34,262 bases of DNA, from contig JACPJN010000006.1 of the NCBI GenBank assembly GCA_016187515.1, positions 321,556 through 355,817 on the forward strand, read 5' to 3'. The position numbers were made by a program, and so were the translations under genes. Of this stretch, positions 15,482 to 16,442 are shown in pieces (position 1 is the stretch's first letter; the number at the start of each line of letters is the position of its first letter). The DNA is from Candidatus Uhrbacteria bacterium. Its GTDB lineage: Bacteria > Patescibacteriota > Patescibacteriia > GWA2-47-26. The notes under the pieces are model-generated. The model was given only the letters and a program-made list of their open reading frames with translations, was not told the origin of the DNA and made no database searches.

Positions 15482-15555
15482 TGGTGGACCCACGGGGAGT
15501 CGAACCCCGACCTGCTCCATGCCATGGAGCCGTTCTACCGCTATACTATGGGCCC
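15482..15555 (-). tRNA. tRNA-Ala(GGC)
   Basis: GGGCCCATAGTATAGCGGTAGAACGGCTCCATGGCATGGAGCAGGTCGGGGTTCGACTCCCCGTGGGTCCACCA; G3:U70 pair, encoded CCA. Confidence 0.95.
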
Positions 15556-15865
15556 CTCACCTTTGGACCTTATGGTTTAAGGCTATTCTTTATTCGTCCC
15601 CTAAGCTGACCATATGCTTTTGCATGTTTCTTAAGGTTATCTTCGCGATATCGCGCATCTGCTTTAGAACGATAGGATTCATAATACACGAGTGTCCATG
15701 GCACCCCCGTCTTTGTGGAATGACTTAGTCCGCGATTATGTTCCATGAAACGCCGTTTCAGATCATTACTGTATCCTACATAAGTATTCCCATTGCGCTC
15801 ACTCTTGATAACATATACATAAAACATAATCGCGTAAAGGTCCAAAGGTGAGGGGCTATGGGCCC
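15546..15865. mobile_element. Putative inverted-repeat-bounded GIY-YIG mobile element inserted in the 5' end of tRNA-Ala
   Basis: 20-bp inverted repeat 15552-15571 / 15837-15856 (GCCCCTCACCTTTGGACCTT) tightly flanking one ORF; 10-bp direct repeat CTATGGGCCC at 15546-15555 and 15856-15865, equal to the first 10 nt of the tRNA. Confidence 0.7.
15570..15827 (-). CDS. GIY-YIG nuclease domain protein (UPF0213/YhbQ-like)
   Basis: MFYVYVIKSERNGNTYVGYSNDLKRRFMEHNRGLSHSTKTGVPWTLVYYESYRSKADARYREDNLKK. Confidence 0.93.
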   Translation of the reverse strand: MFYVYVIKSERNGNTYVGYSNDLKRRFMEHNRGLSHSTKTGVPWTLVYYESYRSKADARYREDNLKKHAKAYGQLRGRIKNSLKP

Positions 15866-16244: not shown

Positions 16245-16442
16245 TGCGTCATCCCGAAGCCGTTAGGCTCTAGGAGGGTTCTCCGACTTGCGTCGAAGAA
16301 CCTACAAGGGGTATCCCGCAAAGGGAGTGGTGGGATGGGAAGGAACGATATCTGCGCCGCGGGCGCTTTCGCCTTGAGCGTGACTTTGTCCCGACCGAAG
16401 CGTCGGGACCCAGATTGAAGCAGCGAGCATGCTCGCTGCTTC
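16245..16442. repeat. Cluster of intergenic palindromic repeats
   Basis: GTCATCCCGAAG...GGGTTCTCCGACTTGCGTCGAAGAACC; GTCCCGACCGAAGCGTCGGGAC; GAAGCAGCGAGCATGCTCGCTGCTTC (perfect palindrome). Confidence 0.8.

Follow-up and report, generated by a model that had tools for sequence, protein, structure and literature searches.

The T4 gene for SegB is a free-standing GIY-YIG homing endonuclease gene located near tRNA genes, and it combines a small nuclease, linkage to tRNAs, and biased inheritance, as does the element family described here. To our knowledge, SegB-type genes lack terminal inverted repeats and are not accompanied by short target duplications or by relatives that share their ends but are devoid of the open reading frame (ORF). 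GIY-YIG ORFs have also been reported in inserts of 16S and 23S rRNA genes of the Candidate Phyla Radiation (CPR), the host group shared with the present family; these inserts correspond to no group I or group II intron, and Tsurumaki et al. (2024, PMC11270868) noted them as sparse, non-intronic, and unexplained by homing. A text search of the main text of that article found no mention of "inverted," "tRNA," or "RNase P." The window analyzed here, a stretch of 34,262 nucleotides (nt) from a Candidatus Uhrbacteria bacterium, contains a GIY-YIG ORF of 85 amino acids (aa) that is bounded by inverted repeats and located at the start of a tRNA-Ala(GGC) gene. This element probably belongs to a family of minimal mobile elements, ~275 to 330 bp in length, with one GIY-YIG gene and terminal inverted repeats of ~20 nt having the tip CCCCNCACC, whose nuclease would open structured-RNA genes. 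The family was found mainly in Patescibacteria.

The original prediction, made from the window sequence alone, had placed the 85-aa ORF between perfect 20-nt inverted repeats, and this proved exact: the two arms of 20 nt are 100% complementary and are separated by 265 nt (Table 1). The TAA codon, said to overlap one repeat, shares 2 nt with that arm, and the ATG, put at ~10 nt from the other, lies 9 nt away. The 10-nt direct repeat CTATGGGCCC occurs at a spacing of 310 nt. As ARAGORN places the 5' end of the tRNA-Ala(GGC) gene at the inner end of one copy, this copy is, as predicted, exactly the first 10 nt of the tRNA, and the outer 4 nt of the arm at this side are the first 4 nt of the tRNA. 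The tip CCCCTCACC of the window arm recurs in other tRNA-inserted copies.

Table 1. Positions in the window of the GIY-YIG element, its parts, and its target gene
Feature	Position	Strand	Remark
Inserted unit between the two direct-repeat copies	15556..15855	-	300 bp; 310 bp counting one copy
Terminal inverted repeat arm GCCCCTCACCTTTGGACCTT	15552..15571	+	Element 3' end in gene orientation
Terminal inverted repeat arm AAGGTCCAAAGGTGAGGGGC	15837..15856	+	Element 5' end in gene orientation
GIY-YIG nuclease ORF, 85 aa, the element's only gene	15570..15827	-	
Target duplication copy 1 (GGGCCCATAG), first 10 nt of the intact tRNA-Ala	15546..15555	-	
Target duplication copy 2 (GGGCCCATAG), upstream side of the element	15856..15865	-	
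Target gene tRNA-Ala(GGC), intact downstream of the element	15482..15555	-	ARAGORN

Relatives of the GIY-YIG gene were present in 49 of 57 related genomes, often several in each. Together with named GTDB contigs, 381 genomes of the class yielded 156 nonredundant homologous ORFs, and 539 ORFs of 70 to 110 aa from the same loci served as controls. A gapless inverted repeat spanning the ORF (score of at least 14) was identified for 92 of the 156 homologues and for none of the controls, which excludes chance. Most units are 275 to 330 bp long, the ORF starting just inside one arm and ending in or near the other, and the usual tip of the ends is CCCC(T/A/G/C)CAC. The closest named relatives of the window protein are mostly from Patescibacteria. 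Copies with inverted repeats were also seen on contigs labelled Omnitrophota, Elusimicrobiota, and Planctomycetota and in a Nanobdellota bin, single cases of which could be misbinned. As to spread by phages, viral contigs contained only seven relatives, mostly weak.

The window protein matched the Pfam GIY-YIG domain (PF01541) with 62.3 bits (cutoff, 22.6 bits), and it has the catalytic domain with conserved Tyr, Arg, and Glu residues that defines the GIY-YIG superfamily (UPF0213-like). Among 35 relatives bearing inverted repeats, Y16, R26, H30, and E50 are invariant and Y5 is conserved in at least 90%. Ratios of nonsynonymous to synonymous substitution rates (dN/dS) of 0.03 to 0.18 in pairs of related elements indicate strong purifying selection on the nuclease across insertion sites.

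Direct repeats at the ends of the arms were far more frequent in 100 inverted-repeat copies than in mismatched flank pairs, from which the expected counts were derived: repeats of at least 5 nt were found in 43 copies (4.9 expected) and repeats of at least 10 nt in 13 (0.1 expected). At tRNAs, the duplication is the tRNA 5' end (5 to 14 nt), so that the tRNA gene remains intact, and at intergenic sites it is 5 to 9 nt long (e.g., TTTAC, GTCAA, and TTGAC). A smaller group of elements with other ends has TATG repeated next to an ATG; we take these sites to be start codons. The length of the duplication varies between copies. The right copy of the duplication overlaps the right arm by at least 3 nt in 24 of the 43 cases, and the outer G-run of the arm therefore comes from the tRNA itself in tRNA insertions. 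This overlap may reflect microhomology or, alternatively, target choice by the tip of the element.

A tRNA gene was located directly downstream of 49 of the 156 ORFs on the same strand and of none on the opposite strand. Copies with inverted repeats precede tRNA-Ala (11 copies), Val, Cys, Tyr, Lys, Ile, Pro, and Ser genes and are accompanied by copies of the tRNA 5' end, as independent insertions. Rfam searches placed further elements inside 16S rRNA, 23S rRNA, and RNase P RNA genes, and others occupy intergenic sites, most copies lying outside rRNA. In the class without inverted repeats, 14 of 26 ORFs have a copy of at least 9 nt of a tRNA 5' end upstream (~1% expected); GC hairpins and the ORF come next, and the complete tRNA comes last. 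The copied 5' part comprises 9 to 40 nt and ends in the D-loop (around positions 12 to 21) or in the anticodon loop (positions 33 to 35, e.g., in Glu, Tyr, and Cys tRNAs). Given these endpoints and the published CPR rRNA inserts, located mostly at the top or the base of a stem-loop (PMC11270868), what the targets have in common seems to be that they are loops or ends of structured RNAs.

Sites without the element were identified as well. Genome G001, from the same family as the window genome, has the syntenic tRNA-Ala(GGC) locus, divergent from tRNA-Cys and followed by the same three genes (63% to 67% identity), and it contains GGGCCCATAG once, with neither element nor duplication; at this family-level distance, it is not a strain-level empty site. 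The spacer between 16S and tRNA genes of the sister genomes G083 and G054 differs by several units, with filled and empty sites. One ORF-less unit of 74 bp in this spacer is flanked by a duplication of 5 nt, CTTGC, and G054 retains the corresponding site intact and empty; the GIY-YIG element at tRNA-Ile is present in G083 only. Related elements at unrelated sites were 93.5% alike within one genome and 82% to 85% alike between genomes. The family thus shares with transposons a unit delimited by terminal inverted repeats, the existence of empty sites, and copies scattered over unrelated places. As separate observations, this spacer (L118 in G054:C30 and L119 in G083:C3) is packed with differing inverted-repeat insertions, and ORF-less units with GGCCAGTTAGAACT ends lie directly before its tRNA-Phe and tRNA-Pro genes.

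The proposal of a mobile element with a target duplication at the tRNA start is thus supported by the empty site, which the original prediction had suggested looking for, by the inverted repeats flanking related ORFs, likewise a check that it had suggested, and by recurrence at other tRNAs. Further copies were found in related genomes; within the window's own genome, where the arm sequence is confined to the window site, a multicopy element is ruled out, and the absence of other copies, which had been named as an argument against mobility, holds for that genome only. The prediction had covered one member of a family that also inserts between genes and into those for 16S rRNA, 23S rRNA, and RNase P RNA and that has ORF-less, tRNA-carrying, and inverted-repeat-free relatives.

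We propose that the GIY-YIG nuclease would open chromosomal DNA where structured-RNA genes have exposed loops or ends (the 5' region, D-loop, and anticodon loop of tRNAs, rRNA hairpins, and RNase P RNA) or, alternatively, at short promoter-like or start-codon sites, and that the element would then be joined in, giving rise to a short duplication of 5 to 14 nt. At tRNA targets, the duplicated bases would be the tRNA 5' end, with the gene intact downstream. At many sites, some of the G residues in the terminal run of the 3' inverted repeat come from the target, which fits microhomology joining. The arms were fully paired in the predicted RNA fold in 16 of 16 cases; as a 20-bp RNA stem, they would allow copies inside rRNA or RNase P RNA to be looped out or cut away and would make them removable or harmless.

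ORF-less units of 42 to 140 bp with the same ends were found in 16S rRNA, RNase P RNA, and tRNA-Lys genes and at intergenic sites, while the control search with reversed motifs gave none. A compact two-end pattern matched ~132 sites in 42 of 286 genomes, compared to 2 for the reversed pattern; a few of the hits are CT-rich repeats. At 14 of the compact-pattern sites listed, the unit encloses a complete tRNA gene. The flanks of these tRNA-enclosing units contain recognizable halves of a decayed tRNA gene in at least nine cases, and the joined flanks best matched the unit's own tRNA among the 14 in eight cases, where about one would be expected. One such unit is located in the window's own genome (C7:164769-164876; L236), with tRNA-Thr(CGT) between CCCCGCACCTTAAGC inverted repeats inside a broken tRNA-Thr gene, and thirteen further nested tRNA units are found in other genomes (L237-L249). 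In G054, a tRNA-Ile-carrying unit splits tRNA-Ile, whereas in its sister G083 this gene is intact apart from the GIY-YIG element before it. The tRNA-carrying units look like elements that disrupt a tRNA gene and bring along a substitute for it.

The tips shared with the GIY-YIG elements suggest that the tRNA-carrying and other ORF-less units are moved by the GIY-YIG protein. The best example for such mobilization is G029 (L250-L251), in which an ORF-less unit of 105 bp with CCCCGCACCACTTT ends is present ~20 times, alongside a GIY-YIG gene between matching ends. From these patterns, we infer that the GIY-YIG protein cleaves the target, that joining follows, and that ORF-less units are moved in trans. 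A more far-reaching proposal, which we put forward tentatively and rate somewhat short of an even chance, is that the family represents a new class of transposable elements in which (i) a lone GIY-YIG protein of ~85 aa acts as the transposase, (ii) ORF-less units are moved in trans, (iii) targets are chosen by the folded loops of RNA genes, and (iv) some units with a complete, functional tRNA gene insert into the cognate tRNA gene, which they destroy and replace, and become essential to the host. Two further repeat arrangements were noted: apparently reversed repeats at locus L009 were explained by two neighboring ORF-less units flanking the gene, and a 116-bp sequence near tRNA-Cys in G116 is repeated at least nine times and is also present in a genus mate.

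Several points weigh against the proposed explanation. Many of the copies in rRNA and RNase P RNA genes have no duplication, and 29 of the 156 ORFs lack both inverted repeats and an RNA target. The window arm has no exact match in its own genome (1.2 Mb in 10 contigs) beyond its two places, making the element single copy there. The evidence is wholly comparative and comes mostly from metagenome-assembled genomes, and movement itself was not observed. We know of no GIY-YIG enzyme that joins DNA ends. Finally, target class changed 34 times on the protein tree compared to 55 times in shuffles (minimum, 46), and Ala- and Val-inserted copies pair together, suggesting that target class is partly heritable and often switched, which also fits site-specific homing.

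A homing endonuclease gene is indeed a possible alternative, although we lean against it. The GIY-YIG protein would cut an uninterrupted RNA gene, homologous repair would copy the element from the occupied allele, and the inverted repeats would act as an RNA stem through which the interrupted or neighboring RNA stays functional. The choice of conserved RNA genes, the partial conservation of site choice just described, and the pairing of the arms in predicted RNA all agree with homing. So do the occupation of the same 23S site by related copies in several genomes and the copies without inverted repeats, in which a complete tRNA is preceded by a tRNA 5' fragment that stops within the D-loop or anticodon loop. 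An allele without the element, to which a homing gene would spread, is present in G001. However, three observations are not expected from homing: target sequences are briefly duplicated at intergenic sites, units lacking the ORF but sharing the ends appear at new sites flanked by 5-nt duplications, and related copies are found in unrelated places. The ORF-less units and the intergenic duplications are accounted for by transposition in which the nuclease acts on the ends, and the preference for RNA genes and the duplicated tRNA parts by homing; both may operate.

It is unlikely that the elements are intervening sequences, i.e., passive inserts cut from the RNA by RNase III at the stem, with the nuclease as a passenger. 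The 20-bp stem in the predicted RNA, the rRNA sites, and the published CPR rRNA inserts with GIY-YIG genes, which match no group I or group II intron (PMC11270868), are compatible with this explanation. However, most copies, including that of the window, are not in rRNA, and many are intergenic or precede tRNAs, where nothing needs to be removed; the strong purifying selection on the protein across sites also argues against a passenger. Group I or group II introns were ruled out, as Rfam identified only tRNAs and no intron in the locus holding the window element (L002) and no intron inside the rRNA-borne elements. Separately, a group I intron match at L035:2767-3063 lies outside the element and overlaps the 3' end of a 16S gene that carries a GIY-YIG element. 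UPF0213-type GIY-YIG proteins do exist as ordinary genes, including the only solved relative found (1zg2), but an ordinary chromosomal UPF0213 gene beside a terminator-like local hairpin, with the tRNA start repeated by chance, is hardly credible, and the hairpin-and-chance explanation was ruled out, because the arms lie 265 nt apart and enclose the whole ORF, unlike the short-loop GC stem and T-run of an intrinsic terminator, none of the control ORFs has such repeats, the duplication recurs at many tRNAs, and the orthologous locus lacks both gene and repeats.

Other GIY-YIG sequences are present in the window's own genome. A second ORF with different inverted repeats (CCCGCCTAAATTTTTGCAC) is located directly before an ATG (C6:234142-234384; L261/L272), and one group of relatives has TATG repeats at sites before ATG. 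Another GIY-YIG ORF lies between long GTCATCCCGAGCG-type repeats (C7:188772-188990; L262), and a repeat resembling this type is found in the window at ~16247-16320. A decayed GIY-YIG fragment directly follows tRNA-Asn (C3:32902-33054; L263).

One family unites the unexplained GIY-YIG inserts in CPR rRNA genes, the GIY-YIG genes beside tRNAs, and short inverted-repeat units. If the nuclease mobilizes the ends, the elements would rank with the smallest known autonomous transposons and rely on a new transposase chemistry. The tRNA-carrying units suggest a way in which an essential tRNA gene can be replaced by a selfish element, with implications for the turnover of translation genes in reduced genomes, and such inserts affect the annotation of tRNA, rRNA, and RNase P RNA genes in these genomes. 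Our literature search, which left subscription journals and preprints largely outside, found no description of a GIY-YIG element of this kind, and a search on UPF0213/YhbQ found no paper.

Insertion sequences and miniature inverted-repeat transposable elements resemble the window family in their inverted-repeat ends, short target duplications, and autonomous and ORF-less copies. However, the sole ORF of the 300-bp unit is an 85-aa GIY-YIG gene and not a known transposase (DDE, Y1, Y2, serine, tyrosine, or Cas1), the duplication length varies, and the targets are structured-RNA genes. We know of no transposase class of this 85-aa GIY-YIG kind. Casposons are likewise inverted-repeat elements mobilized by a nuclease that had not been recognized as a transposase before, but they encode Cas1 and many other genes and are kilobases long, compared to one tiny gene in 0.3 kb here (PMC4046053). 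The 23S rRNA intervening sequences are also inserts in rRNA hairpins with a terminal stem, whereas the present family encodes a nuclease instead of the 23S_rRNA_IVP protein and is found mostly outside rRNA. The rRNA inserts of the CPR catalogue (PMC11270868) form a minority of the wider family described here, which we place among the inverted-repeat mobile elements as a variant with an undescribed nuclease, the rarer rRNA copies having already been catalogued as unexplained insertions.
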